From IMG/VR virus record IMGVR_UViG_3300044859_001241, positions 1 to 21,430 of that record: a DNA stretch of 21,430 bases. One strand, written 5' to 3'. This document shows, piece by piece, positions 1-17,484 of this stretch (position 1 is the first letter of the stretch; the number at the start of each line of letters is the position of its first letter). The notes beneath the pieces are model-generated. The model was not told where the DNA came from, did not search any database, and saw only the letters and a list, made by a program, of their open reading frames with translations. Position numbers and translations under genes: made by a program. The stretch is from a virus.

Positions 1-48
1 TACTATTAATAGAAGTCAACCTGTACAGGTTGACTTCTATTAATAGTA
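1..48. repeat. Perfect 48-bp palindrome at the window edge
   Basis: Bases 1-24 are the exact reverse complement of bases 25-48, with the axis between bases 24 and 25 and no unpaired loop. One arm is ordinary RCC1 coding sequence (INRSQPVQ); the other arm supplies the codons VDFY, the TAA stop at 6-8 and a following TAG. It could be a fold-back artefact at a contig end, a real inverted duplication, or a hairpin terminator; any T-tract for a terminator would lie outside the window. Confidence 0.95.
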
Positions 49-2969
49 TCATCTAGTCCCAATTGGCCTGATGTATTTGTCCCCCATACATACAGAGTTC
101 CATTATTTTTTAAAGCAATTGTATGCCCTGTTCCTGAGCAACTATTTACATAAGACCAATCGGTATCACTACCTATCTGAACCGGACTACTTCTATTTAT
201 GGTATCATTTAATCCTAATTGACCCGTATTATTAATACCCCAAGACCAAAGTTTTCCGTCAGTTGTTATGGCTGTAACACCATTAGCAGAGGCAGTTGCA
301 GATGCGTATGAGGTAGGTACTGAAGTAGATCCAAAACTTGATGGATAAAATTCATTAGTCATTTGCATAAGGAACGAAGATGGGTCACCATTGACTGTAA
401 ATGTTACTGCATTTGAACTATAATCAGTTGTCAGTGAACTAGATTGAAATGCAAGTATTACTGTATTTGAAATATTTGTCAGTGGTGATGTAGGTACTGT
501 GAAGCTAGACCCACTATAAACTATAGCTTTTGTAAATCTCAAATTACTTATATATGCATTACAGCTTTCCATTAGCGTTATGTTAGTTAACGTAGATATT
601 ATTGGTGCAGCTCCTGCATATGGCGTTGTAGCTGTTAAAACTCCATCTAGATAAACATAATAAGTATTCAAAGCACTATTTCTTACAAATGCAATATGAT
701 GCCAAGTATCTGATGGAGCAGCTACACCAGTAGTATTACCATATGCATTTATGTTACCATCATTCTGGGCAGAACAACTAAATGCCCAGCCGGATGTATA
801 ACCACTATTACCTAGCGTTACCCACCAATCTGCATTTCCAATAACTTTATGTTTGAGTCCGACCGATCCACCGGAAGGTATATTAAATGCCCAAAATTCA
901 ATAGTAAAATTGTCAGATGCTCCTATACTATAATTAGCATCGGTAGCAGAAAGGGTAACCCCGTTACTATAACCTTGATATACTGACCAATAGGTGCTTA
1001 CTCCTGAAATTTCTGATGTAGGTATTCTAACGCTAGTAACAGTTTCATAACCTGTTATCCCGGACAGACCCAATGCAGCTTGTCCAGTGCCCCATCTATA
1101 TAAATTAAAATCAGAACTAACTGCTATACCAAAACTATCACCTGAACTCACTGAAACAAAACTTTTAGGCCATATAATCATCATAGGGGAGAGTTGGTCT
1201 GAAAGGTTTCCTGTACCATTTGCATAACTAACTCCTCTTCCCCACACATATAATTTATTACTGTTTGTAATACCACCTGTGCGTAAACTTCCAGTATTTA
1301 TAAATACCCAAGACAATGATCCTATTTGTGTTGGACTACTTCGAAGGGTGGTAGTGTTATCTCCTAGATTACCAAAAAAATTATATCCCCATGCATATAA
1401 TCTGCCATCCTGTCGTATTGCTGCACTATAATTATTCCCAGTACTAACTGTAATCCAAGAAAAAGGTGTATCAGGTCTAATTTGTCCTGAAGAATTTAAT
1501 CCCCAGCCCCACAAATATCCATCACTATCAATGGCTAAAACATGGGCCCCGCCCGCACTAACCTGTAACCAGCTGCTATTACCAATCTTTGCCGGAGGAT
1601 TTGACCCGGAACCTGTAGAATTATTTCCTAGTACTCCGTTACTATTCAATCCCCATGTGAACAATAAATTGTCTGGACTTATGGCTGCTACGTAGCCGCC
1701 ATCACCTATACTCATTGACTTCCAAGATAGGGCTATAGTAGAGGTTTGACCTCCTACTTGACCATAAGTATTTGTTCCCCACCCATATAAACCATAATCA
1801 TACGATGAAATAGCTAGATTATGTGTTCCAGAAGAGACTGCAATCCAACTGCCACCTCCAGTGATCTGTACAGGGCTACTATAACTAATCAAATTTAGAG
1901 TTCCTAATTCACTATTAGAATTATTACCCCATACATATAACAATCCATCTACTGTTATTCCTGTACTATGAATATTACCTGCTGATATTGAACTCCAAAA
2001 ACTATTTCCTATCTGCACCGGACTTGATCTATTGATAGTTGTATTATCTCCTAATTGACCAGAACTGTTTAGTCCTAATGCAAATAACTTACCATCATAT
2101 CTTACAGCTAAAATATGATCATCTCCGGTTACTACCTGTGACCAATACAAACTTGAATAGGTTGAATATTTACCTAATTGACCATATTGGTTATCACCCC
2201 AAGTAAATAATTTATTAGATGTATTAATAGCTAAACTATGGGACCCGCCGGCTGAAATAATACTCCAAGAATTTGTACCTATTTGTACTGGGCTTGATCT
2301 ACTTATTGTAGTGCTATCTCCTAATTGACTAATATCATTTCTACCCCAAGTATATAATTTACTAGTCGAGTCGAGTGCCATTGAATGAAACTCTCCAGCA
2401 CTTATTGAAATAAAACTTCCTGAAATTTGAACCGGGCTACTTCTGAGAATAGTATCAAACAATCCTAATTGGCCATCATAATTAGAACCCCATGCATATA
2501 GTCTGTAAGAAGAATCAATAGCAAGACTATAATTTTCACCAGCACTTATTTGTATAAAACTAGTAGTTTGCGAAATTAAAGTAGGTAAACTTCTATCTAC
2601 TACCCCAATATCACCGAGTTGTCCATAGTAATTACTACCCCAAGCATATAAAGAATAATTTTTATCTATTCCTAAAGTATGTGTTTTTCCTGCAAATACA
2701 GCTGTCCAACTACTAGAACTTATTTGCACTGGGCTAGATTTACTTACTGTAGTGCCATCTCCTAATTGTCCTTGATAATTGTTGCCCCATGCCCACAGAG
2801 TAGAATCACTTCTTATAGCTACTGAGTGGCCATCACCGCTGGTAATAGAAACCCAACTGTAATAGTAGGCCGCTTTGCTATTTCCAACCAAACCAAAACT
2901 GTTATCGCCCCATGTATATAAAGAGGGCACATGACTATATAAACCTAGTAATAATGTATTGATATCCAC
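6..2969 (-). CDS. RCC1-repeat beta-propeller protein with inserted LamG-like module (putative phage adhesin)
   Basis: The product is 987 aa and begins at a GTG codon. An in-frame TAA lies two codons upstream, so no longer start is possible; GGA about 9 bases before GTG is a weak ribosome site. About 14 RCC1-type units run from residue ~17 to ~660, with hallmarks such as LYAWGSNYYGQLGD, RSSPVQI and SAGxxHSxAI. Units 1, 6, 9 and 11 are short and lack the RSSPVQ segment. A concanavalin/LamG-like module follows (residues ~661-870; FTIEFWAF, WHHIAFVRN, AYISNLRFTKA), then two more RCC1 units, the last incomplete. RCC1 repeats normally form seven-bladed propellers; here they probably make an extracellular binding surface, which is inference from the fibre-operon setting. 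No signal peptide or catalytic motif is visible. The final four codons and stop lie inside a perfect palindrome (bases 1-48), so the true C-terminus may continue beyond the window. Confidence 0.85.
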   Translation of the reverse strand: MDINTLLLGLYSHVPSLYTWGDNSFGLVGNSKAAYYYSWVSITSGDGHSVAIRSDSTLWAWGNNYQGQLGDGTTVSKSSPVQISSSSWTAVFAGKTHTLGIDKNYSLYAWGSNYYGQLGDIGVVDRSLPTLISQTTSFIQISAGENYSLAIDSSYRLYAWGSNYDGQLGLFDTILRSSPVQISGSFISISAGEFHSMALDSTSKLYTWGRNDISQLGDSTTISRSSPVQIGTNSWSIISAGGSHSLAINTSNKLFTWGDNQYGQLGKYSTYSSLYWSQVVTGDDHILAVRYDGKLFALGLNSSGQLGDNTTINRSSPVQIGNSFWSSISAGNIHSTGITVDGLLYVWGNNSNSELGTLNLISYSSPVQITGGGSWIAVSSGTHNLAISSYDYGLYGWGTNTYGQVGGQTSTIALSWKSMSIGDGGYVAAISPDNLLFTWGLNSNGVLGNNSTGSGSNPPAKIGNSSWLQVSAGGAHVLAIDSDGYLWGWGLNSSGQIRPDTPFSWITVSTGNNYSAAIRQDGRLYAWGYNFFGNLGDNTTTLRSSPTQIGSLSWVFINTGSLRTGGITNSNKLYVWGRGVSYANGTGNLSDQLSPMMIIWPKSFVSVSSGDSFGIAVSSDFNLYRWGTGQAALGLSGITGYETVTSVRIPTSEISGVSTYWSVYQGYSNGVTLSATDANYSIGASDNFTIEFWAFNIPSGGSVGLKHKVIGNADWWVTLGNSGYTSGWAFSCSAQNDGNINAYGNTTGVAAPSDTWHHIAFVRNSALNTYYVYLDGVLTATTPYAGAAPIISTLTNITLMESCNAYISNLRFTKAIVYSGSSFTVPTSPLTNISNTVILAFQSSSLTTDYSSNAVTFTVNGDPSSFLMQMTNEFYPSSFGSTSVPTSYASATASANGVTAITTDGKLWSWGINNTGQLGLNDTINRSSPVQIGSDTDWSYVNSCSGTGHTIALKNNGTLYVWGTNTSGQLGLDDTINRSQPVQVDFY

Positions 2970-2972
2970 TTC

Positions 2973-3545
2973 TTAAATTCCGGAATCAGTAGAAGGTTCA
3001 GTTGAAGTTGTTGATGTTGGTAAGTTAGGCCATACTATCAAATTGAAGCTATTTATATCATAATCATCTTTGTAGATATTTGGTAAATCACGTAATTCTT
3101 GACGATATAATTTGTATAGAGTAGTTAATTCTGTACCATTTTTTTCTACTATATCATTCAATTGAGTGTAATCAGTGTCTTTGAGTAATTGATTACGATA
3201 TTCTCTAAGTTGCGACATTACTATATTATGTATATTAATTTTTTCTAAAAATTGTTGTTCTTCAGATGTTGTAGTTTCTGTAGTTTCAATTGAAGTAATA
3301 GTTTCAACCGTCTTGGTCTCAATAATAATATTCCCTTCAATAGTGAAAATGCTATCAGATAATTTTTGACTAGTTGGATCATAGCTTGGTACAGGAGCCT
3401 GCTCTATGCATCTCCAGCCTAAAGATTCTATATATGTTTTATCTTCTGATAAAGCATAAAAATTGCTTATATTTCTCCAATTTAATGGAAAATTATCATA
3501 AACTCCAGTGATTTTATTATTTTCAATATGTGCGTATTTTGCCAT
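2973..3545 (-). CDS. Tail-assembly-chaperone-like phage protein
   Basis: The protein is 190 aa, starting MAKYAHIENNKITG. I place the start at the ATG at 3545 because it overlaps the stop of the preceding gene as TAATG, a typical coupling junction; a start at 3578 would overlap that gene by 34 bases. The N-terminal ~70 residues resemble small phage fibre-associated proteins. A Thr/Glu/Ile-rich linker follows (residues ~80-105), then a C-terminal ~75-residue segment with RNQLLKDTDYTQ, YRQELRDLP and VWPNLP. That pattern matches, from memory, the phage tail assembly chaperone family (Phage_tail_APC type), found near tail fibre genes of many myophages. A chaperone role in fibre assembly is therefore likely but not shown. 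Its TAA is separated by a single codon (GAA) from the GTG of the RCC1 gene, in the same frame. Confidence 0.78.
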   Translation of the reverse strand: MAKYAHIENNKITGVYDNFPLNWRNISNFYALSEDKTYIESLGWRCIEQAPVPSYDPTSQKLSDSIFTIEGNIIIETKTVETITSIETTETTTSEEQQFLEKINIHNIVMSQLREYRNQLLKDTDYTQLNDIVEKNGTELTTLYKLYRQELRDLPNIYKDDYDINSFNLIVWPNLPTSTTSTEPSTDSGI

Positions 3546-3937
3546 TAGTAATTCTGCCCTGAAATGAATGCTTGCCAAGTTGTACCACCGTCAATCGTCA
3601 TAAACAAGAATAAATCTTTTTTTCCATTAGTTGATGTTATTGTGGGTGCTATGGAGCTTGGCCATTGAAAACTTGCAGGCCATGTAACACTTCTTGCGGT
3701 ACCGTCAGCAGTAAAAATAATCACAAAACTACTAGTACGTCCTGTAGATTGTATATTACTCAGAGTAATTGAAGTAATATTATTAGTTAATGAAACGCTG
3801 AATATTGCAGCGGCATTTAAATCTAATGTAATACTATTGCTTACTATTGATATATCTGCTTCCGTGGAACTAGAATTATTTGGAAGAAATACTTTATTAT
3901 CGTCAATGACAGTCGTGTTTGATACTTTTATTGCCAT
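3545..3937 (-). CDS. Small beta-rich fibre-module protein
   Basis: The protein is 130 aa. ATG at 3937 is preceded at good spacing by a strong ribosome site, AAGGAG. The second half carries SVTWPASFQWP, APTITSTNGKKD and DGGTTWQAFISG, a pattern I recognise as a module recurring in tail proteins of marine phages; there it is usually part of a longer fibre, whereas here it is almost the whole gene. The segment before it (ITLDLNAAAIFSVSLTNNIT) is the normal N-terminal part of the same module. No signal peptide, membrane segment or catalytic motif is visible. Its stop overlaps the next start as TAATG. It is likely a minor structural or fibre-tip protein; the exact role is unknown. Confidence 0.8.
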   Translation of the reverse strand: MAIKVSNTTVIDDNKVFLPNNSSSTEADISIVSNSITLDLNAAAIFSVSLTNNITSITLSNIQSTGRTSSFVIIFTADGTARSVTWPASFQWPSSIAPTITSTNGKKDLFLFMTIDGGTTWQAFISGQNY

Positions 3938-3964
3938 CTTCGCTCCTTTGAACTCGGCTTACTA

Positions 3965-6900
3965 TTATTTATCTTTTTTAGTACTCTGGCGTTTTGGCTT
4001 AATAGAATTCCTAATTTCTTGCAATTCTTTATTGTTCTTTTTCAATGCTTCAAGTAAGAATGCAATTATAGGTATATAGTTAACTGTTTTTTTACCCTGT
4101 GCTGTTGTTCCAACTAATTCAGGTAATATTTGTTCTACATTTTGAGCACTTAAACCGTAACTCTTTCTTCCATTATCTGTCCATTCGAATCCCATACCAA
4201 ATAATTGATCTAGTATACTAAACGGATCGTCAATAGTCTGCCAATTTGTTTTTAATGTAGCATCGGATAGTGAGTTAAGGTCTGTTATAGTTAACTGACC
4301 AAGACTTGGATTGAATTGTAGTTTAGTAGAAGATACGCCTGCGGTGCTTAATGATCCAGAACTTGCAGTTGCATATACTGGATAATATGTTGCATTAGTT
4401 GTAGTATCGTCGGTGATTGTTGGTGAACCGCCGCCGCCGCCACCTGATTGTGCTACCCAACTTAGTGCTCCTGACCCGTCTGTTTGAAGAACATAGTTAG
4501 CACTTCCACCAGATATATGTAAGTTACTTACATTTCCTAATGTAACGTTAGCAGTAGTTGTAAAATTAACAACGCCTGTTGCATTGCTTACAGTTAATCC
4601 AGATAATGAACCAACACTTGTAATATTAGGTTGAGCATTAGTATAAACTGTGCTTGCAATTAATGCATTTCCAACTTGTCCAGTCAATACACTACCATTA
4701 CCAATAAAATAATTAGCACTAACATTACCGGTGTATGTAGGTAAGTAATCAGCAACATTGCTATTTCCATAACTTCCCCCACCTCCACCTGATTGTGCTA
4801 CCCAACTTAATGCACCTGATCCATCTGTACTTAATACATAACCAGCTGTTCCACCTGATATATGAACATTACCTACTGCACCTAATGCTACATTGCTTGT
4901 CCCTGTTAGGTCAAATACACCAGTTCCAGTAAGTCCTGCTATAGTACCAACGCTTGTGATGTTTGGTTGTGCGTTTGTATATACTGTTCCTGCTACTAAT
5001 GCATTACCTACTTGACCACTAACATTGCCGCCTGTAAGACCTGACAGGTAACTACCATTACCAATAAAGAATCCAGTACCACTAGTACCTACATTTAAAT
5101 TTCCATAAATACCAACATCACCTGACACATTATTATATTTGGTTGTAATAGTAATAGTACCACTGCTATCTTGTACATTTGCAGCTTTAAGACCTGTGCC
5201 TGTAGCAGTAATTAATCCTGTTACTGTTAAACTACTCAATGAACCAACACTTGTAATATTTGGTTGTGCATTTGTGTAAACTGTACCGGCTACTAATGCG
5301 TTACCTACTTGTCCACTGACATTACTTCCTGCTACTGAATTAGCAATATTTGCATAATGACTTTGCACTGCACTTGTGACATTACCAATTACATTACTAC
5401 CTGTAATATAAGTTAACAGGCTACCATTACCAGTGAAATAACTTGCTGTTGCTAAGTTACCTAAACTAGCATTACCACTAGTGATATTACCTGTTACTGT
5501 TAAACTCGCTAGTGTACCGACTGAAGTGATATTTGGTTGCACTGCGGTTGTTAATGTGCCGGTTAGATAATTAGCAGTTACATAGTTTAATCCACTAATA
5601 TTTCCACCTGTGCCTGATCCAGTAACTAGATTACCAGTTATAACTACATTGCCAGTAATTTTATTAAACGTAAATGCTGAATTGCCACCAAAACTGCCAC
5701 CGTCATTAAATTGAACTTGTGTATCACTTCCACCAGGTGTTGGCTGGGCTACCCAGGCTAATGTACCAGATCCATTAGTTTTTAATACATATCCGTCTGT
5801 ACCACCTGATATATGTAAATTGCTTACTGCGCCTAGGGTGACATTTGCAGTAGTTGTAAAATCAACAACACCTGTTGCGTTACTTACGGTTAATCCTGTT
5901 AAAGAACCGACTGATGTAATGTTTGGTTGTGCATTTGTATAAACTGTACCGGCTACTAATGCATTGCCTACTTGACCACTCACATTTCCACCGGCTACTG
6001 AGTTAGCTATGTTTGCGTAATGACTTTGAACTGCACTCGTAACATTACCGTTTACATTAGCACCAGTGATGTACGTTAGTGTGCTGCCATTTCCAATGAA
6101 ATAATTTGCAGACACATTACCAGTGTATGTTGGTAGATATGCGGCTACATTTGTATTTGAATAACCTGCTACTATTCCGGTCAATAAGCTGCCGTCGCCG
6201 CTGAAATAACTTGCTGTTGCTAAGTTACCCAAACTTGCATTTCCACTTGTAACATTACCTGTTATTGATAAACTTGCTAGTGTACCAACTGATGTAATAT
6301 TTGGTTGTGCGGCTGTAATTACTGTTCCAGCATATGTGCTATAATTTGCATTAGCAATAGTACCAGTTAATTGACTACCATTACCTATGAAATAGCTTGC
6401 TCTTATATTACCAAAATTATTAAATGTTACTACTTCACTTGAGACAGATACATTACTGCCAAATGCAAATTCACCATTAGAGTTGTCCCACCCCATAAAT
6501 GCATCAACTACCCCAGTAGTATAGTAGTGTAATAATGTACCGCGATCTTTACCATCGTTTGTAGTTAATGGGTCCCCGTTAGCCCCACCGCCTAATTCAA
6601 TGATCGGATCTTCAACTCTAAATGTTTCTACATTAATGTAAGTAGTAGTTCCACCTACAGTAAAGTTACCAGTTACAGTAGCATCTCCACTTACACTTAG
6701 ACTTACTAATGTACCAACACTTGTAATATTTGGTTGTGCATTTGTATATACTGTACCTGCTACTAATGCGTTACCAACTTGACCTGATATATTACTTCCT
6801 GCTACCGAGTTAGCTATATTTGCAAAATGACTTTGTACTGCACTTGTTACATTACCTGTTACATTGCCACCAGTGATACTTGTCAATAACGATCCATTAC

Positions 6901-8347
6901 CACTAAAATAATTACTAATAACATAATTGGCGCCAGTTATATTTCCTGCAGAACCACTAGTTGTGATACTAGCAACAGTCATTGTTCCGGTTATATTCGC
7001 ATTACCTGCTGTAAAGTTACCTGTGTAAGTTGGTAGATATGCGGCTACATTTGAATTTGAATAGCTTGCTGGTAATCCGGTTAGTAAACTACCGTCACCT
7101 ATAAAATAATTTGCAGAAATATTACCTGTGTAAGTTGGTAGATATGCGGCTACATTTGAATTTGAATAGCTTGCTGGTAATCCGGTTAGTAAACTACCGT
7201 CACCTATAAAATAATTTGCATTTATATAGTTAGCACCGGTTATATTTCCCGCAGAACCACTAGTTGTGATACTAGCAACAGTAATTGTTCCGGTTACATT
7301 CGCATTACCTGCTGTAAAGTTACCTGTGTAAGTTGGTAGATATGCGGCTACATTACTATTGCTATATGTACCAGTAATGCCAGTTAATAAACTTCCGTTA
7401 CCACTAAAATAAGTAGCACTTGCTAAATTACCTAAACTAGCATTTCCACTTGTAACATTGCCGGTTACTGTTAGACTTGCTAATGTGCCCACTGAAGTAA
7501 TATTTGGTTGAGCATTTGTAGTTACTGTAGCCGCTGTAGTAGCACTGCCTGCACTTGTTGCGTATGTTGCGTTTGCTACTATACCGGTTACATTAGCGCC
7601 GGTTATGTTTGTTAAGAAACTACCATCACCACTAAAATATGTAGCACTTGCTAGATTACCTAAACTAGCATTACCTGATGTAATATTACCTGTTACTGTC
7701 AAACTTACTAATGTACCAACACTTGTAATATTTGGTTGAGCATTAGTGTAAACAGTGCCTGCTACTAATGCATTACCTACCTGACCTGATACATTACTGC
7801 CTGCAACTGAGTTAGCTATATTTGCAAAATGACTTTGAACTGCACTTGTGACGTTTCCTGTTACATTTGCTCCGGCTATTGCGGATAAAGTTGATCCATT
7901 ACCTATAAAATATCCAGCAGTAACATTCCCTGTAGTACTAATTATATTGCTACCATAGCTTGCTAAAAACGTTGCTACATCACTGTTAGCATACCCTGAT
8001 GGTAGTCCAGTTAATAAACTTCCGTTACCACTGAAATAAGTAGCAGTTACTAAATTACCTAAACTAGCATTGCCTGATGTAATATTACCTGTTACTGTTA
8101 AACTTGCTAATGTGCCAACTGATGTGATGTTTGGTTGTGCATTTGTAGTTACAGTAGCCGCAGTTGTAGCACTAGATGCTATAATACCGGTCAATAAACT
8201 TCCATTACCGCTAAAATAATTTGCTAATACTAAATTACCTAAATTGGCATTACCGCTACTAAGGTTACCTGTTACACTCGTATTTGCGAATGTAAAGTTT
8301 CCTGTAGTATTTAAATTGAAGGGTTGCAGTAATGTTAAATCTGGCAT
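3965..8347 (-). CDS. Giant repetitive tail fibre with C-terminal S74-type intramolecular chaperone
   Basis: The protein is 1460 aa, starting MPDLTLLQPFNLN; AAGAG lies about 7 bases before the ATG. Most of it is built from short repeats: ten copies of a QPNITSVG unit, many copies of YFxGNGSLLTG, and SAVQSHFANIANSVAGSN blocks joined to SGQVGNALVAGTVYTN. This looks like a trimeric, beta-structured fibre shaft. A non-repeat block near residues 535-650 carries FRVEDPIIELGGG and DAFMGWDNSNGEFAFGS, known to me from marine T4-like fibres. GYVLxTxGSGxLxWV units occur in the second half. Residues ~1311-1360 (DDTTTNATYYPVY, SSTKLQFNPSLGQL) lead into a chaperone domain at 1361-1460 with the SDATLK start and YGLSAQNVEQILPELV. 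Family knowledge predicts self-cleavage just before Ser1361 after trimer folding. It is paralogous to the 1073-aa fibre at 14263-17484. Confidence 0.93.
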   Translation of the reverse strand: MPDLTLLQPFNLNTTGNFTFANTSVTGNLSSGNANLGNLVLANYFSGNGSLLTGIIASSATTAATVTTNAQPNITSVGTLASLTVTGNITSGNASLGNLVTATYFSGNGSLLTGLPSGYANSDVATFLASYGSNIISTTGNVTAGYFIGNGSTLSAIAGANVTGNVTSAVQSHFANIANSVAGSNVSGQVGNALVAGTVYTNAQPNITSVGTLVSLTVTGNITSGNASLGNLASATYFSGDGSFLTNITGANVTGIVANATYATSAGSATTAATVTTNAQPNITSVGTLASLTVTGNVTSGNASLGNLASATYFSGNGSLLTGITGTYSNSNVAAYLPTYTGNFTAGNANVTGTITVASITTSGSAGNITGANYINANYFIGDGSLLTGLPASYSNSNVAAYLPTYTGNISANYFIGDGSLLTGLPASYSNSNVAAYLPTYTGNFTAGNANITGTMTVASITTSGSAGNITGANYVISNYFSGNGSLLTSITGGNVTGNVTSAVQSHFANIANSVAGSNISGQVGNALVAGTVYTNAQPNITSVGTLVSLSVSGDATVTGNFTVGGTTTYINVETFRVEDPIIELGGGANGDPLTTNDGKDRGTLLHYYTTGVVDAFMGWDNSNGEFAFGSNVSVSSEVVTFNNFGNIRASYFIGNGSQLTGTIANANYSTYAGTVITAAQPNITSVGTLASLSITGNVTSGNASLGNLATASYFSGDGSLLTGIVAGYSNTNVAAYLPTYTGNVSANYFIGNGSTLTYITGANVNGNVTSAVQSHYANIANSVAGGNVSGQVGNALVAGTVYTNAQPNITSVGSLTGLTVSNATGVVDFTTTANVTLGAVSNLHISGGTDGYVLKTNGSGTLAWVAQPTPGGSDTQVQFNDGGSFGGNSAFTFNKITGNVVITGNLVTGSGTGGNISGLNYVTANYLTGTLTTAVQPNITSVGTLASLTVTGNITSGNASLGNLATASYFTGNGSLLTYITGSNVIGNVTSAVQSHYANIANSVAGSNVSGQVGNALVAGTVYTNAQPNITSVGSLSSLTVTGLITATGTGLKAANVQDSSGTITITTKYNNVSGDVGIYGNLNVGTSGTGFFIGNGSYLSGLTGGNVSGQVGNALVAGTVYTNAQPNITSVGTIAGLTGTGVFDLTGTSNVALGAVGNVHISGGTAGYVLSTDGSGALSWVAQSGGGGGSYGNSNVADYLPTYTGNVSANYFIGNGSVLTGQVGNALIASTVYTNAQPNITSVGSLSGLTVSNATGVVNFTTTANVTLGNVSNLHISGGSANYVLQTDGSGALSWVAQSGGGGGGSPTITDDTTTNATYYPVYATASSGSLSTAGVSSTKLQFNPSLGQLTITDLNSLSDATLKTNWQTIDDPFSILDQLFGMGFEWTDNGRKSYGLSAQNVEQILPELVGTTAQGKKTVNYIPIIAFLLEALKKNNKELQEIRNSIKPKRQSTKKDK
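3966..3973 (-). promoter_or_regulatory. Possible T4-like late promoter upstream of the small fibre-module gene
   Basis: The minus strand reads GATAAATA (seven of eight to TATAAATA), overlapping the last codons and stop of the 1460-aa fibre and lying 28 bases upstream of the ATG at 3937. The match is partly forced by the Lys-Asp-Lys-stop codons, so it is uncertain. Confidence 0.3.
3968..4267 (-). other. S74-type chaperone domain (last 100 residues of the 1460-aa fibre)
   Basis: The domain runs from Ser1361 (codon TCC at 4265-4267) to the end. Visible marks are SDATLK with Ser1361 and Lys1366 at the positions of the conserved Ser and Lys of the endosialidase-type chaperone, then NWQTIDD, GFEWTDNGRKSYGLSAQ and ILPELVGT. 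A helix rich in Leu and Lys (FLLEALKKNNKELQEI) and a basic tail close it. Cleavage is predicted between Leu1360 and Ser1361, releasing a ~100-residue chaperone. Confidence 0.88.
6407..6736 (-). repeat. Fibre block shared with 16372-16701 (copy in the 1460-aa fibre)
   Basis: About 330 bp aligning without obvious gaps to 16372-16701 in the 1073-aa fibre gene. It codes for the block containing FRVEDPIIELGGG, NDGKDRGxLLHYYTTG and DAFMGWDNSNGEFAFGS. Differences are mostly at third codon positions; one stretch of about 35 bp is identical. This marks an older duplication or exchange between the two fibre genes with the protein held constant. Confidence 0.9.
7017..7220 (-). repeat. Tandem duplication, 105-bp period, in the 1460-aa fibre gene
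   Basis: Bases 7017-7115 and 7122-7220 are identical over 99 bp, giving a 35-codon repeat unit (YLPTYTGN ... IGDGSLLTGLPASYSNS). The flanking segments near 6924-7020 and 7230-7323 are also near-copies of each other, so a larger imperfect duplication surrounds the perfect one. Exact identity at synonymous sites points to a recent event. Confidence 0.9.
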
Positions 8348-8364
8348 AATTTACTCTTGTTATG

Positions 8365-8372
8365 TATTTATT
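8365..8372 (-). promoter_or_regulatory. Possible T4-like late promoter upstream of the 1460-aa fibre
   Basis: On the minus strand the sequence is AATAAATA, seven of eight matches to the T4 late promoter core TATAAATA. It lies in the 30-base gap, 17 bases upstream of the ATG at 8347. The region is AT-rich, so chance matches are likely. Confidence 0.35.
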
Positions 8373-8377
8373 CTATT

Positions 8378-11300
8378 TTAAAACCCTATCAACGGTACAG
8401 TAGGTGGAGTGAATGTGGTTGTGTAGCGGGCATAACCGTTTGTGATTCTCAAATCCGCAATGTAGCCAAGGGTGCCGTAGCCTGACAAACTGCTGTCTTT
8501 TGATCCAATGACCACAAGATTGGTTGTTGCACTAGCAGTTTGTGTGCCGGACACTGTGTTAAATCCTGCTGACACTCCATTTACATAGTACGTCATGGTT
8601 GTACCACTACGCACCCAAGTTAGATATGTCCATTGATTTTTAAAAACTGTTATGCCATTTCCATAATTAGATGTTGTGTTATAATAGAGCATTCTGAATG
8701 AGCCGGAAACTGGACTGGGCAGCGGCTCTAATCCAAAAACAAAATTAGCTGCTGTTTGGCCAGTTTGCCTTGCATCATACACTGACCAGTAGTCAGGAGC
8801 CGAATTACTCGGATACACCCAACATTCCAGTGTAAAGTCACTGGCAAACGTTGTGAAACCGGGTTGTGGTCTCATACCAAAGGTATCAGTTTTGGTGACA
8901 AAATAAGCACTGGAATATTTTGTTAAATTACTACCGCCAAATGGTTGAAAAGTGGATACCTGTGTGTTACCATATATTGTGATAGCAAATGCATTGGTGG
9001 AATTGTCAATGAATCTGTTTGATTGACAAACTAAGTAACTGGTTCCTGATATTGCTGTGAGTGGTGCTGTAGGTGGGGTGAATGTTGCGGTATATACTGC
9101 GGTGCCTTTGACAAATCTTAAATTAGAAATATACCCAGCCCAGGGGTTATTGTTACCATCACTGTTTCTTCCTATAAAAGGCTGTTGCGTACCATAATTT
9201 GTACTGTCAGACCATGTGCTGCCTGATTGAGTACCATTAATATACATTTTGGTGCTACTACCGCTTCTAACTACAGCTATGTGTGTCCATACATTGGCAA
9301 CCAGTGCGGCTCCTGTAATTACATTAGACCCATTAACAAGATATGTCACTTGCATTGCACCCTGCAAATATATCATGTGATCGGTAGCAAGGCGTCCACC
9401 TGCGTTGTTGCCTCCATCAATGATAGTCATATTTCCAGCACTAGATGTAGGATAGGCCCAGACTTCCAAGGTAAAATCGCCGTTGCCAGCGCCCATTGCT
9501 GCATTAAATGGGAGAGTCAAATAATCGCCACTGCCATCAAAGGCACCACTGTAGGAACCGTAGTAAGGCGAGTTTGATGTGGTTAGTTTTGCTGTGCCTG
9601 CGGTTTCCATGTCACTCAGTTCAGCAGCATCGTATGTGGATGGAGTTATGGTGCTGGATACCAATAACACAGTATTTTGCACTGCTGGCAAGGGAGAGGC
9701 GCTTGGCACAAACGGTCCGGTATATACTGCGGTGCCGTTGACCACACGCAGGTTGGAGATATATCCATTCATCAATGATGAATATGTGCCACCAGAATTT
9801 ATTGCCCCGATAACAGGTTGTTGCGCTAAATTATTAATCGTGCCAGATAATGTACCTGTAGTAGAATCTTGAACTCCATTGACAAAAAGACGTATAGTAG
9901 TTCCTGAACGAGTTACAGCAACATGATTCCATTGATTTGCAGTCACTAATGTTGTTGTACCGGTTGTGGTTGTTATTGCGGATGATCCTACTGTAAACTC
10001 ACTTCGTAGTCTACCTGTAGATTGCATATTAAAATTTATAGCTGTAGCTGATACGGTGCCACCAAACCAAACAGTAAATATCGCCGTTTCGGCCGCTAAT
10101 GTAGTTGGGTATATCCAACTTTCAATAGTAAAATCACCAGAAAATGCCCACGTATTGTTATCAGGTACTAATAAATAATCTCCAGTGCCATCAAAGTACA
10201 TGCTGGTGCCCACTGTGGTAGGAGAGTATGCTACCGGTGAAGTAAATGTGTTCACAAACGGATTTTGTATCACAGGCCGTGTGTTGCCGTTCACTGTGAT
10301 AACAAGTGCATTGGTGGAATTGTCAATGAATGTGGTAGACTGGCAGGTCAATAGACTGGTGTTGGCAATTGCAGTGAGTGGTGCTGTAGGTGGGGTGAAT
10401 GTTGCAGTATATACTGCGGTGCCTTTAACTACTCTGAAGTTTGAGATAAGACCATTCCAATCTGGAATTGATCCGTCTTGATTGCGACCAATTTCAATAA
10501 GACTAGATGATGGCAATGATGCTGTTTGATTACTAACTATAATATCTTGTACGCCATTAACATATAATTTAAACACAAGAGATTGTCTAACAAACGCAAT
10601 GTGATACCACTGCCCGCTGTTACTAAGCTGTGTTGTTCCATTGGTGCCACTAGTACCGAAATAAGTTCCAACTCCTGATCCGTTAGCGTAAATATTGATT
10701 GCGTTATCACCATTACTCAACCTAACCATAAGCCGATTAGTATAACTTCCGCTAGTATATATTGTAAAAAGACCTCGGCCATACTGAGAACCAGAATAAC
10801 CATAATTAATTACAAAACACTCAAAAGTAAAATCTCCGGTGCCCATGTCAAATCCCGCATTTACGGGTGTGGTCAAATAATCCCCAGTGCCATCAAAGTA
10901 ACCACTGTAGCTGGCAAAGTTTGTGATGTAGCCCGGGAATGGTGAGAATTTATTTACAACAGTATCACCATTTCTTGTTATCACATTGCGTATTGGAGAA
11001 TAGTCAACAAAACTGTTTGAGTTACAGGTCAACAAACTGGTATTTGCTATGGAATTCAATGGCGTGGTGCTGGGTGTGAATGCTGCGGTATATACTGCGG
11101 TACCTTTGACCACACGCAGGTTAGAGATATACCCCTTAAACATTGAATCTGCATTAACATTACTTGCAGCACCAATCGTTGGTGTGATTGTAGAAGTTAC
11201 ACTATCTGAGTCAGTATAGGACCCACTGCTCACACCATTGATATAGAATGTGATCGTTGACCCGTTTCTCACAAGGGCAACGTGATTCCAGGTACCTGCT

Positions 11301-13894
11301 GTAATTGTTCCTGTAGATGTACCGCTACCAACATCACCAAGTTGAGCGTACAACACCCTAGTAGAACCGTTTAATGCAATTACAAATTCATTAGCAACAC
11401 CATATGTAGTTGCTCCAACGATTACTCCGTAAGCCGCAGTTGTTCCAGTGTCATAAATCCACGCTTCAATAGTGAAATTGCCTGCACCAAACGCAAATGC
11501 AGTATTGGTAGGCATGCTCAGGTAATCACCAGTGCCATCAAAATAATTGCTCCATGCACCATTGAGTGGACTGAATGTTCCTATGTTTGTGTTACCGTTT
11601 CGTGTGATTGAATTGTTCTGACCGCTTTCGTCAACCATTGTGGTTGTTGTGGCAGGCACAGTGGTTTGACAGGTCAACAAACCGGTGTTGGTGATTGCAG
11701 TGAGTGGTGTGGTAGGCGGTGTGAACGCAGCGGTATATACTGCGGTTCCATTGACCAATCTAAAATTAGAAATATAACTGGTTGTTAGTTGTACGCCAGT
11801 GTCGCCACCACCTATTGCTGCCAGCCCAGAACTAAAGTTAGTACTCATTGTGCCAGACCCATCTAATACGCCATTTAAATATAACTTTGTCTGACTGCCA
11901 CCAGTGCCTTCTCGCACAAGTGCCACATGATTCCATTGTCCAATTGGTACTACGCTAGAGCAGGTAAAAAGAAAACCGCCTTGAACACCAATTGATATGC
12001 CGCCAGATGAATTTAATAAAATTAACGGTCCGCTGGTTGTATTACTTCCTGCGTATATATACTTGTCAGAGTTTGTTGCAGGAAGATATATCCAGAGCTC
12101 AATTGTAAACGCAGATGTTCTAATAGAAGGTTGTGTATAGGTTAGATAATCACCAGTGCCATCAAACAATGTGCTGCCGTATGTGGCGTAACTGCTGTTG
12201 GGTGTGAATGGTTGAAATGAGTTTACTGCTATGTTACCGGCCACTGTGATTGTAAACGCATTGGCAGAATTGTCAACAAATCCACTTGATTGACAGGTTA
12301 ATAGACTGGTACCAGAAATTGCTGTTAATGGCGTGGTGCTGGGTGTGAAGTTGCTGGTGTACACAGCGGTACCTTTAACCACACGCAGGTTTGAAATATA
12401 ACCAGTGATCAAAGCTGATGGCCCTGCTCCTGCACCTATAAAATATGGTACTCCTGATGAAGTATTTACAGTAGCTATTGTAGCATCAGTTCCTTTTACA
12501 CCATTAACATAACAGGATGTAGTGCTTCCATTTTTAACGCCAGCAACATGATACCATGTTCCAACAACAGGAACGGTTGTATTATATGCTCGTACAGCAC
12601 TGGCTAAAAATCCAGTTGATGTGCAATAAAATTCCCATCTACTTTGATCTGCTCTATAGAATAAAGCCCAATCTCCGTCACCTGATGTATTATTAGTATT
12701 GCTTATAATATGTTGAGAAGAAGCAACACTGCTTGAAAAATAAACCCAAGCCTCAACGGTAAAACTGCTTGACTGTGGTGCTAACGCAACATTATACGGC
12801 ACACTTAAATAATCTCCAGTGCCATCAAAGTATCCACTGTAGTAGCCAGGTTCAAACGGATCAAATTTACTTGGCTTGGTGTCTCCAACAATGGTGATGT
12901 CAAGATTGTTTGAACTTGCATCAGACACAAATGTATTTGTTACTACCGTGCTGCTCATCAACATTGAATTGTATTTGAAGTACGGATCACTCAACGTCAC
13001 AACCCAGTAAATTGTATTGGTTGCAGAACGATTTGTGGTTGCGGCTGTGGCAGTCAACAATGACGTTGTGTTGGCTTCTGTTGTGGGTGTGCCTGATATC
13101 ACACCTGAACTCAGTGCCAATCCTGTGGGCAAGGCATTTGCAGTGTATGTTACACCGTAACCGGCAGCACTGGTTGCAGTCAAGGTAACGTTGCTGATTG
13201 GTGAGCCGCCCACCACTGCATAGGTGGTTCCACTGCCTGGACTGCTCCAGGTGACCACATCAGTGTTGATGGTCAAAGTAAAACTGCGAGTTACGTCTTG
13301 TAACTCAGCGTCAGTAGCTTTGATTGAAAAACTATATGTTGTACTGCTACTATCTACTGGTGCTGTGCCAGTAATCACGCCATTAGCATACAATGTTGCG
13401 CCACTAGGTAATGCACCAGTATCCAAACTATATGTTATTGCACTATCACTTGTAGCAACCACTTGAGTGCTAATTGCTGTAGTTTCATAGTTTGTTCCAA
13501 TGCTACCTGCGGATGTAGTATATGTTGGTATACTAGAATAAGTTATACCAGGTATATATATAGCGGCTGATCCACTAGTATTGGATAGTATCAATGTATA
13601 TGACCCGGCAGATTTTGCTGTACTAGTAAAGGTTGCTGTTGATGGACTTACTACGGTAACTGATGCTAAAGTGGTAGAACCAACTATACCAGTCAGCCCA
13701 GCAGCAAAACCTGTGCCAGTGACAACAACGGTTTGTCCACCTGCAGGATCTAATGATGTATCATCTGACCCTTGAATAGCCCAAGATGTAATTGAAGGTA
13801 CCGGGTCTTTCTTCTGAACAAATAATTCACGATTTGCTACTGACCCGACACCGTCTCTGGCCCTTGCTCCGCGAATACCGCTATTGAAAAACAT
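8378..13894 (-). CDS. Multi-lectin adhesin: TIG, two Ig-like modules and seven LamG-like modules
   Basis: The protein is 1838 aa. ATG at 13894 overlaps the stop of the preceding gene as TAATG, with a strong GGGAGGAGA upstream. After a short N-terminus (MFFNSGIRGARARDG, perhaps the attachment segment) come an IPT/TIG domain (residues ~37-120; GGQTVVVTGTGFAAGL), two putative-Ig modules (~125-210 and ~212-302; ALPSGATL with GVITGTAP, then ALPTGLAL with GVISGTP) and seven concanavalin/LamG-like modules. Six carry FDGTGDYL or FDGSGDYL, near residues 356, 577, 787, 1000, 1233 and 1453; the seventh, near 1663, has lost it. Each has FTxExW, QWNHVAxVR-like and SNLRVVKGTAVYT-type motifs. LamG folds usually bind glycans, so host-surface recognition is the likely role; no catalytic motif is visible. 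The protein ends directly after the last module (FTPPTVPLIGF). Confidence 0.9.
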   Translation of the reverse strand: MFFNSGIRGARARDGVGSVANRELFVQKKDPVPSITSWAIQGSDDTSLDPAGGQTVVVTGTGFAAGLTGIVGSTTLASVTVVSPSTATFTSTAKSAGSYTLILSNTSGSAAIYIPGITYSSIPTYTTSAGSIGTNYETTAISTQVVATSDSAITYSLDTGALPSGATLYANGVITGTAPVDSSSTTYSFSIKATDAELQDVTRSFTLTINTDVVTWSSPGSGTTYAVVGGSPISNVTLTATSAAGYGVTYTANALPTGLALSSGVISGTPTTEANTTSLLTATAATTNRSATNTIYWVVTLSDPYFKYNSMLMSSTVVTNTFVSDASSNNLDITIVGDTKPSKFDPFEPGYYSGYFDGTGDYLSVPYNVALAPQSSSFTVEAWVYFSSSVASSQHIISNTNNTSGDGDWALFYRADQSRWEFYCTSTGFLASAVRAYNTTVPVVGTWYHVAGVKNGSTTSCYVNGVKGTDATIATVNTSSGVPYFIGAGAGPSALITGYISNLRVVKGTAVYTSNFTPSTTPLTAISGTSLLTCQSSGFVDNSANAFTITVAGNIAVNSFQPFTPNSSYATYGSTLFDGTGDYLTYTQPSIRTSAFTIELWIYLPATNSDKYIYAGSNTTSGPLILLNSSGGISIGVQGGFLFTCSSVVPIGQWNHVALVREGTGGSQTKLYLNGVLDGSGTMSTNFSSGLAAIGGGDTGVQLTTSYISNFRLVNGTAVYTAAFTPPTTPLTAITNTGLLTCQTTVPATTTTMVDESGQNNSITRNGNTNIGTFSPLNGAWSNYFDGTGDYLSMPTNTAFAFGAGNFTIEAWIYDTGTTAAYGVIVGATTYGVANEFVIALNGSTRVLYAQLGDVGSGTSTGTITAGTWNHVALVRNGSTITFYINGVSSGSYTDSDSVTSTITPTIGAASNVNADSMFKGYISNLRVVKGTAVYTAAFTPSTTPLNSIANTSLLTCNSNSFVDYSPIRNVITRNGDTVVNKFSPFPGYITNFASYSGYFDGTGDYLTTPVNAGFDMGTGDFTFECFVINYGYSGSQYGRGLFTIYTSGSYTNRLMVRLSNGDNAINIYANGSGVGTYFGTSGTNGTTQLSNSGQWYHIAFVRQSLVFKLYVNGVQDIIVSNQTASLPSSSLIEIGRNQDGSIPDWNGLISNFRVVKGTAVYTATFTPPTAPLTAIANTSLLTCQSTTFIDNSTNALVITVNGNTRPVIQNPFVNTFTSPVAYSPTTVGTSMYFDGTGDYLLVPDNNTWAFSGDFTIESWIYPTTLAAETAIFTVWFGGTVSATAINFNMQSTGRLRSEFTVGSSAITTTTGTTTLVTANQWNHVAVTRSGTTIRLFVNGVQDSTTGTLSGTINNLAQQPVIGAINSGGTYSSLMNGYISNLRVVNGTAVYTGPFVPSASPLPAVQNTVLLVSSTITPSTYDAAELSDMETAGTAKLTTSNSPYYGSYSGAFDGSGDYLTLPFNAAMGAGNGDFTLEVWAYPTSSAGNMTIIDGGNNAGGRLATDHMIYLQGAMQVTYLVNGSNVITGAALVANVWTHIAVVRSGSSTKMYINGTQSGSTWSDSTNYGTQQPFIGRNSDGNNNPWAGYISNLRFVKGTAVYTATFTPPTAPLTAISGTSYLVCQSNRFIDNSTNAFAITIYGNTQVSTFQPFGGSNLTKYSSAYFVTKTDTFGMRPQPGFTTFASDFTLECWVYPSNSAPDYWSVYDARQTGQTAANFVFGLEPLPSPVSGSFRMLYYNTTSNYGNGITVFKNQWTYLTWVRSGTTMTYYVNGVSAGFNTVSGTQTASATTNLVVIGSKDSSLSGYGTLGYIADLRITNGYARYTTTFTPPTVPLIGF
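9061..9112 (-). repeat. DNA-conserved LamG linker, copy 1
   Basis: This 52-bp segment, which codes for the TAVYTATFTPP end of one LamG module, is nearly identical (two mismatches by eye) to 10378-10429. Shorter relatives centred on the TATATACTGCGGT core recur at the other module ends, for example near 9720, 11089 and 11733. Confidence 0.8.
10378..10429 (-). repeat. DNA-conserved LamG linker, copy 2
   Basis: Partner of 9061-9112 in the same gene. A second match precedes it: about 24 bases around 10311-10334 equal those around 8992-9015 (coding for IDNSTNA). The repeats bracket one lectin module each. Confidence 0.8.
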
Positions 13895-14262: not shown

Positions 14263-17200
14263 TTAAAATCCAAATACTATTGCCATGGCAATAGCTTTTC
14301 CTGTTGTGGTTAGCCCACTTGTGCTTACCACTCCCAAAGTTGTAATTTCTAAACTTGATCCACTAGCCGGGGGTGCTACAAATGTGATATCTGAGCCTGA
14401 TAAACTGTATACATCTTTTTGCAATATTGCACCGTTATAGTTTATGATAGTATCATTTTCACTTGATGGTGTGGTGCTCAATGTGAATACAGTTTGAACT
14501 CCATTGCCGGTAAAATTATCTATTGTTGCAGTAGTTGTTCCGCCAGATTGTGCTACCCAGCTTAGTGTACCTGATCCATTAGTACTTAGTACATAGTTAG
14601 CCGTTCCACCTGTTATATGTAAGTTACTTACATTACCTAATGTAACATTTGCAGTAGTTGTAAAATCAACAATACCTGTTGCATTGCTTACAGTCAATCC
14701 AGATAATGATCCAACACTAGTAATATTAGGTTGTGCGTTAGTTGTAACAGTTCCTGCAGTGGTTGCACTAGATGATGTTATTCCAGTCAACAAGCTGCCG
14801 TTACCACTAAAATAGTTAGCGGTTACTAAATTACCTAAATCAGCGTTACCACTTGTAATATTACCTGTTATTGTTAAACTAGTTAGTGTACCAACTGATG
14901 TAATATTTGGCTGTGCGTTAGTGTACACAGTGCCAGCAACTAATGCGTTACCTACTTGTCCAGAGACGTTACTACCAGTTACTGAATTAGCAATATTTGC
15001 ATAATGAGCCTGAACTGCACTTGTGACATTACCAGTGACATTAGCACCTGTTATAGTTGTTAGTGTACTACCATTACCTATAAAATAATTTGCACTTACA
15101 TTACCGGTGTATGTTGGTAGATACGCGGCTACATTACTGTTTGCATATCCAGCTGGTAAGCCAGTCAATAAGCTACCATCACCGCTAAAATATGTTGCTG
15201 TTGCCAAGTTGCCTAAACTAGCATTACCTGATGTAATATTACCGGTTACAGTTAGGCTACTTAATGTACCAACTGAAGTAATATTTGGTTGAGCATTAGT
15301 ATATACTGTTCCAGCCACTAGTGCATTACTTACTTGACCTGATATGTTGCTGCCAGCTACTGAGTTAGCTATGTTTGCAAAATGACTTTGTACTGCGCTA
15401 GTAACATTACCAGTGACATTGGCACCTGTAAGACTTGTTAATAATGATCCGTTTCCACTGAAGTAGTTTGCTACGACATAATTAGCACCAGATATGTTAC
15501 CTGTACCTGATCCAGTAGTAATTGTTCCTGCTACTAACGAACCAGATATGTTTGCATTACCTGCTGTGAAATTACCCGTATATGTTGGAAGATATGCGGC
15601 TACATTTGCATTTGAATAGCTTGAGGGTAGTCCAGTTAATAAACTACCGTTACCAATGAAGTAATCAGCAGATACATTACCTGTTACAGTCAATGATGTT
15701 AGACTACCTATACTAGTGATGTTTGGCTGAGCATTAGTGTAAACAGTACCAGCAACTAATGCATTGCCTACTTGACCACTCACATTTCCACCGGTTACTG
15801 AGTTAGCTATGTTTGCAAAATGACTTTGTACTGCACTAGTGACATTGCCACTTACATTTGCACCCGTAATACTTGTTAATAATGATCCGTTTCCACTGAA
15901 GTAATTTGCTACAACATAATTAGCACCAGATATATTACCAGAACCCGATCCTGTAGTAATACTACCAGAGATGTTTGCATTACCTGCACTGAAATTACCT
16001 GTATATGTTGGAAGATATGCGGCTACATTACTGTTGCTATATGTACCAGTAATGCCGGTTAGTAGACTACCATCACCGCTAAAATATGTTGCTGTTGCTA
16101 AGTTACCTAAACTAGCATTGCCTGATGTAATATTACCTGTTACCGTTAAACTTACTAATGTACCAACTGAGGTAATATTAGGCTGTGCATTAGTATAAAC
16201 AGTACCGGCTACTAATGCATTGCCTACTTGCCCACTTACATTACTACCTGCTACTGAATTAGCAATATTTGCAAAATGACTTTGTACTGCGCTGGTAACA
16301 TTTCCTGATACATTACTACCGGTTATGTCAGTTAATGTGCTGCCATTACCTATAAAATAATTAGCACGGATATTACCAAAACTATTAAATGTTACTACCT
16401 CACTAGATACTGAGACATTACTTCCAAATGCAAATTCACCGTTAGAGTTATCCCAACCCATAAATGCATCAACTACTCCGGTGGTGTAATAATGCAATAA
16501 CGAGCCGCGATCTTTCCCGTCATTACTTATTAATGGGGCTCCGTTAACTCCGCCGCCCAATTCAATGATTGGATCTTCAACTCTAAATGTTTCTACATTA
16601 ATGTATGTAGTATTACCACTTACTGTAAAATTACCAGTTACGGTAGCATCTCCGCTTACATTCAAACTGACTAATGTACCAACTGATGTAATATTTGGTT
16701 GAGCATTTGTGTATACTGTACCGGCTACCAATGCATTACCTACTTGACCACTTACATTACTTCCGGCTACTGAATTAGCTATATTTGCATAATGACTTTG
16801 CACTGCACTTGTGACATTACCGTTTACATTGCTACCTGTTATATATGTTAAGGTTGCACCATTACCTATAAAATAGTTAGCAGAGACATTGCCGGTGTAT
16901 GTTGGGAGATATGCGGCTACATTTGTATTTGAATAACTTGCTGGCAATCCGGTTAATAAACTACCATCACCACTAAAATATGTTGCTGTTGCCAAGTTAC
17001 CTAAACTAGCATTACCACTTGTAATATTACCTGTTACAGTTAAACTTGATAATGTTCCAACAGAAGTAATGTTTGGTTGAGCATTTGTGTACACCGTGCC
17101 AGCAACTAATGCGTTGCCTACTTGACCGCTAATATTACTTCCTGCTACGGAGTTAGCAATATTTGCAAAATGACTTTGTACTGCACTAGTTACATTACCA

Positions 17201-17484
17201 GTTATGTTAGCACCGGTAATATATGTTAATGTGCTACCATTGCCTATAAAATAATCAGCAGAAACATTGCCTGTATATGTTGGAAGATACGCCGCTACAT
17301 TTGTATTTGAATAACCTGCTGCTATTCCGGTTAATAATGCCCCGTTACCTATAAAATAATTTGCTGTTACGCTATTGCCTAAATTAGCATTAGCGGCTGA
17401 AACATTGGCAGTTATTGTCATTCCGTTAACTGTATAGTTACCGGTTATGTCTATGCCAGATGATTTAACTACCGTTAATGCCAT
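14263..17484 (-). CDS. Giant repetitive tail fibre, paralogue without S74 domain
   Basis: The protein is 1073 aa, starting MALTVVKSSGIDITGN; AAGG lies 9 bases before the ATG. It is built from the same repeats as the 1460-aa fibre: seven QPNITS(V/I)G units, YFIGNGSxLT units and SAVQSHFANIANSV blocks, plus the shared FRVEDPIIELGGG block near residues 260-375 and one GTANYVLSTNGSGTLSWV unit. The last ~91 residues (983-1073) differ completely: FTGNGVQTVFTLSTTP, INYNGAILQKDVYSL and ITFVAPPASGSSLEI form a small beta domain seen in phage tail fibres, followed by a short tail ending AIAMAIVFGF. With no self-cleaving chaperone visible, it may fold alone or need a chaperone in trans, such as the protein at 2973-3545. 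It is likely a shaft-forming fibre; the target is unknown. Confidence 0.9.
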   Translation of the reverse strand: MALTVVKSSGIDITGNYTVNGMTITANVSAANANLGNSVTANYFIGNGALLTGIAAGYSNTNVAAYLPTYTGNVSADYFIGNGSTLTYITGANITGNVTSAVQSHFANIANSVAGSNISGQVGNALVAGTVYTNAQPNITSVGTLSSLTVTGNITSGNASLGNLATATYFSGDGSLLTGLPASYSNTNVAAYLPTYTGNVSANYFIGNGATLTYITGSNVNGNVTSAVQSHYANIANSVAGSNVSGQVGNALVAGTVYTNAQPNITSVGTLVSLNVSGDATVTGNFTVSGNTTYINVETFRVEDPIIELGGGVNGAPLISNDGKDRGSLLHYYTTGVVDAFMGWDNSNGEFAFGSNVSVSSEVVTFNSFGNIRANYFIGNGSTLTDITGSNVSGNVTSAVQSHFANIANSVAGSNVSGQVGNALVAGTVYTNAQPNITSVGTLVSLTVTGNITSGNASLGNLATATYFSGDGSLLTGITGTYSNSNVAAYLPTYTGNFSAGNANISGSITTGSGSGNISGANYVVANYFSGNGSLLTSITGANVSGNVTSAVQSHFANIANSVTGGNVSGQVGNALVAGTVYTNAQPNITSIGSLTSLTVTGNVSADYFIGNGSLLTGLPSSYSNANVAAYLPTYTGNFTAGNANISGSLVAGTITTGSGTGNISGANYVVANYFSGNGSLLTSLTGANVTGNVTSAVQSHFANIANSVAGSNISGQVSNALVAGTVYTNAQPNITSVGTLSSLTVTGNITSGNASLGNLATATYFSGDGSLLTGLPAGYANSNVAAYLPTYTGNVSANYFIGNGSTLTTITGANVTGNVTSAVQAHYANIANSVTGSNVSGQVGNALVAGTVYTNAQPNITSVGTLTSLTITGNITSGNADLGNLVTANYFSGNGSLLTGITSSSATTAGTVTTNAQPNITSVGSLSGLTVSNATGIVDFTTTANVTLGNVSNLHITGGTANYVLSTNGSGTLSWVAQSGGTTTATIDNFTGNGVQTVFTLSTTPSSENDTIINYNGAILQKDVYSLSGSDITFVAPPASGSSLEITTLGVVSTSGLTTTGKAIAMAIVFGF
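16372..16701 (-). repeat. Fibre block shared with 6407-6736 (copy in the 1073-aa fibre)
   Basis: Counterpart of 6407-6736, about 330 bp, with mostly synonymous differences. The encoded text differs at few residues, such as GAPLISNDGKDRGS here against GDPLTTNDGKDRGT there. Confidence 0.9.

Follow-up and report, generated by a model that had tools for sequence, protein, structure and literature searches.

The stretch of DNA analysed here (the window, 21,430 bases) is an entire virus record, IMGVR_UViG_3300044859_001241, so that a contig ends at its base 1. At this end, on the minus strand, lies a truncated gene for an RCC1-repeat protein (6-2969), called as an open reading frame of 987 aa, in which Pfam RCC1 (PF00415) matches 11 stretches and exceeds the Pfam gathering score with 361.7 bits. 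At residues ~684-878 of this protein, the RCC1 array is broken by a stretch resembling the LamG-like repeats found in the adjacent 1,838-aa protein (8378-13894), and L008 matches the RCC1 protein in this stretch only. Elsewhere in the window, two large paralogous repeat proteins (3965-8347 and 14263-17484) have the motifs NITSVGTL and YFIGNGSxLT in common; one of them ends in a Peptidase_S74 chaperone domain, and the other is without a Pfam match to Peptidase_S74.

The RCC1 gene meets the contig end in a perfect palindrome. Bases 1-24 and 25-48 are reverse complements of each other at every position and form a 48-bp palindrome with no spacer, which starts at base 1 of 21,430 and thus touches the very end of the contig. 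By chance, at the local composition, ~3e-10 perfect palindromes with 24-nt arms are expected anywhere in 21,430 bases, and the runner-up in the window has arms of 9 nt; the mirror symmetry that an earlier note on this DNA had described is therefore exact and far above chance. The same note held that the mirror arm supplies the residues VDFY followed by TAA and TAG. The minus-strand frame reads ...DDTINRSQPVQV-D-F-Y-TAA-TAG, with the RCC1 frame of 6-2969 ending in ...TINRSQPVQVDFY ahead of TAA TAG, and the mirror arm does provide D-F-Y and both stop codons, but not the V, since the genuine gene also has V at that position (GTA versus GTT).

Overlapping contigs and the intact gene

With the RCC1 protein as a query against IMG/VR, six loci were obtained. 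The contig L003 (3300042863_000301) stems from a different metagenome and matches the window with 100% identity over 3,430 nt (window 3448..19), and the two part at window base 18/19. Past the split, L003 reads ...CAACCTGTACAGGT|ACCTGGCAGTTGG... with the RCC1 frame open, running on after window base 19 as ACCTGGCAGTTGGATATCAG with no fold-back, and it extends 10 kb beyond the fold site, first inside the RCC1 gene and then through a second RCC1 gene. A diverged contig, L004 (3300008448_007197; ~96% DNA identity), continues like L003 and carries an ORF of 2,277 aa. These two contigs come from different metagenomes, are mutually non-identical, and share the same continuation, which is a canonical RCC1 blade. 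Neither relative thus has a genome end or an inverted copy at this site, as both L003 and L004 continue through it. When the whole collection was scanned with a 26-mer from the genuine arm, the only other contigs to hold it were L003 and L004, with one copy each (a count that may not include the record of the window itself), so neither contig has an inverted repeat; the scan found no inverted copy in these two or in any other viral contig.

The intact ORF occupies L003 480-7613 and encodes 2,377 aa with 26 RCC1 stretches, for which PF00415 again exceeds the gathering score (837.9 bits), making the true gene ~2.4 times longer than the ORF in the window. The first 984 of the 2,377 residues are genuine in the window protein; its final three residues (DFY) and the stop codon come from the artefact. 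Proteins of reference cyanophages match across the genuine junction, as does that of Synechococcus phage BUCT-ZZ01 (45% over 299 aa). Because L003 and L004 read through and reference proteins span the junction, the DFY-stop ending is not a C-terminus; DFY and the stop codons come from reading the upstream RCC1 motif in antisense.

In L003, two giant RCC1-repeat genes (480-7613 and 7610-13429) follow each other head to tail and overlap by 4 bases. The second encodes at least 1,940 aa, and together the two genes form a very long RCC1 array adjoining tail genes.

A natural palindrome at the fold point

Comparison with the overlapping contigs separates the genuine from the false bases of the 48-bp palindrome. 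Bases 31-48 (minus strand), the genuine arm, belong to the RCC1 motif DDTINRSQP and are identical in L003 and L004. Bases 19-30 are a natural 12-bp palindrome, ACCTGTACAGGT, whose exact centre is the fold point (between 24 and 25); it sits inside a PVQV-coding RCC1 motif, and L003 has it twice, at 3419-3430 and 7253-7264. As this 12-mer is natural and belongs to the genuine sequence, only bases 1-18 are false: they are the reverse complement of 31-48 and do not occur in the continuation of the genuine gene, with L003 departing from base 18 and L004 following L003. L004 is without the 12-bp palindrome and has ACCTGTACAAGT instead. Perfect palindromes of this length have only 9 centres in the 13,431 bases of L003 (0.07%), a rarity that makes it unlikely for the fold to coincide with one by chance.

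A second copy of CAACCTGTACAGGT lies at L003 7240-7264, in the same RCC1 gene and 3.8 kb downstream of the fold point, and includes the 12-mer at 7253-7264. We considered a repeat-induced misjoin through this paralogous copy and rejected it: the false bases complement the upstream arm exactly, and the complement of the copy's arm differs, its flank reading GAAGCCAACC and not GAAGTCAACC. A hairpin in the genuine sequence is likewise a weak candidate for the cause, as that sequence has no notable hairpin when folded (z = 0.37). Two strands pairing through the 12-bp palindrome are a likelier seed than a hairpin.

Origin of the false bases

With very high confidence, we attribute bases 1-18 to a fold-back artefact at the contig end, arising from the library or from the assembler. 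The earlier note had listed, among its explanations, a fold-back artefact that hides a longer gene, and this is the one that the data uphold: base 1 is a contig end, and the contig that matches the window without a mismatch passes the fold and carries the gene at 2,377 aa. In the library, strands ending in ACCTGTACAGGT could anneal to themselves or to a sister strand, and amplification or end repair would then fill in the paired ends, yielding the true arm joined to its own reverse complement. Alternatively, an assembler tip ending at ACCTGTACAGGT may overlap its own reverse complement, with the same result. In a k-mer graph, the fold-back path would then meet itself, so that the contig would end a fixed short distance past the centre and leave a perfect terminal palindrome. 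By either route, the fold-back would convert antisense RCC1 codons into D-F-Y-TAA-TAG and make a long gene look finished.

Taking an arm of (k+1)/2 as the expectation for an assembler k-mer, we simulated the fold-back walk in a de Bruijn graph, which halts 24 bases past the centre at k = 47 (k-mers as edges) or k = 49 (k-mers as nodes); a k of 47 or 49 would thus explain why the palindrome stops at 48 bases. Either route, library or assembler, would fit these data equally, and the k-mer size is an inference. As an assembler signature, palindromes of 48 bp or of other k+1 lengths were sought at 250 ends belonging to 161 random IMG/VR contigs. A zero-gap terminal palindrome with arms >4 nt was seen at none of these ends, one had a terminal hairpin (L225; 25-nt arms, 14-nt loop), and no arms >14 nt were seen at ~25,000 internal positions in the same survey. 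Terminal palindromic ends are uncommon, though not unique. The inverted repeat of L225 (IMGVR_UViG_3300021431_000404, 1-64) starts from base 1, its 25-nt arms are perfect around the 14-nt loop, and it is possibly a similar fold-back end. A literature search on contig-end palindromes returned nothing useful.

The earlier note had also named a real inverted duplication; such a duplication, or a rearrangement, in a phage subpopulation would truncate the RCC1 protein. The perfection of the palindrome and the origin of the window and L003 in different assemblies would suit it, and short natural palindromes can seed genuine fold-back rearrangements. The inverted copy, however, covers 18 false bases before the contig ends, occurs in no other viral contig in the 26-mer scan, and is missing from both overlapping contigs, which are uninverted; we consider such a rearrangement very unlikely. 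In its specific form, with the 12-bp palindrome seeding a real fold-back inversion in a minority of the source sample's phage genomes, which then make a shortened RCC1-repeat protein, the chance is slimmer still.

An invertible or hairpin element, as the earlier note also proposed, or a terminal structure at the end of the phage genome would agree with the position of the palindrome at the record's end and with the strong hairpin into which the 48 nt fold as a single strand (-20.1 kcal/mol). Against this stand the identical contig, which goes on for 10 kb past the site, the lack of an inverted copy or an end at the site in L003 and L004, and the absence of a notable hairpin from the genuine sequence; among the scanned window ORFs, no recombinase, invertase or protelomerase was matched in PHROGs or Pfam, the matches being to RCC1, tail, virion or unknown phage families. 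We regard the probability of such an element as negligible. A reading in which VDFY is a true C-terminus and the assembly of L003 is wrong has nothing beyond the record itself in its favour, and it is just as improbable, given that the two contigs agree on a canonical blade and that the homologous protein does not end at VDFY, as the earlier note had allowed it might, and instead continues with further RCC1 blades.

The palindrome is therefore real as an observation in the record, and the fold-back origin that we favour for it is almost certainly artefactual and ordinary, not a real feature of the phage. It also carries a caution: stop codons may come from a contig-end fold-back, which makes a truncated gene seem complete and end in invented residues, and palindromes at contig ends should be trimmed ahead of gene calling.

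Comparison with known systems

The closest parallel is the PDSM model (PMC10908179), in which natural palindromes expose sticky ends that pair during library preparation and give reads in which a strand is joined to its inverted complement. The end of the window resembles these chimeric reads in having a short natural palindrome at its centre and a strand followed by its own reverse complement. The PDSM reads, in contrast, come from human short-read libraries, in which near-perfect palindromes and false variants were described, whereas the present case is seen in an assembly, where it closes a phage contig. Whole-genome amplification (PMC6218980, PMC13265396) and long reads (PMC12870357) are further settings for which artificial palindromes or fold-backs are described. 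The inverted chimeras of whole-genome amplification are like the window end in being artificial palindromes, and would be a parallel in origin if the source sample had been amplified.

As for the protein, the truncated gene is a relative of those for the RCC1/BNR-repeat proteins of cyanophages (Synechococcus phages BUCT-ZZ01 and S-SRM01), ~35% identical over most of its length. Compared with these cyanophage proteins, the gene here is a long array, reaching its 2,377 aa in L003, and the window holds only the first 984 residues of it.
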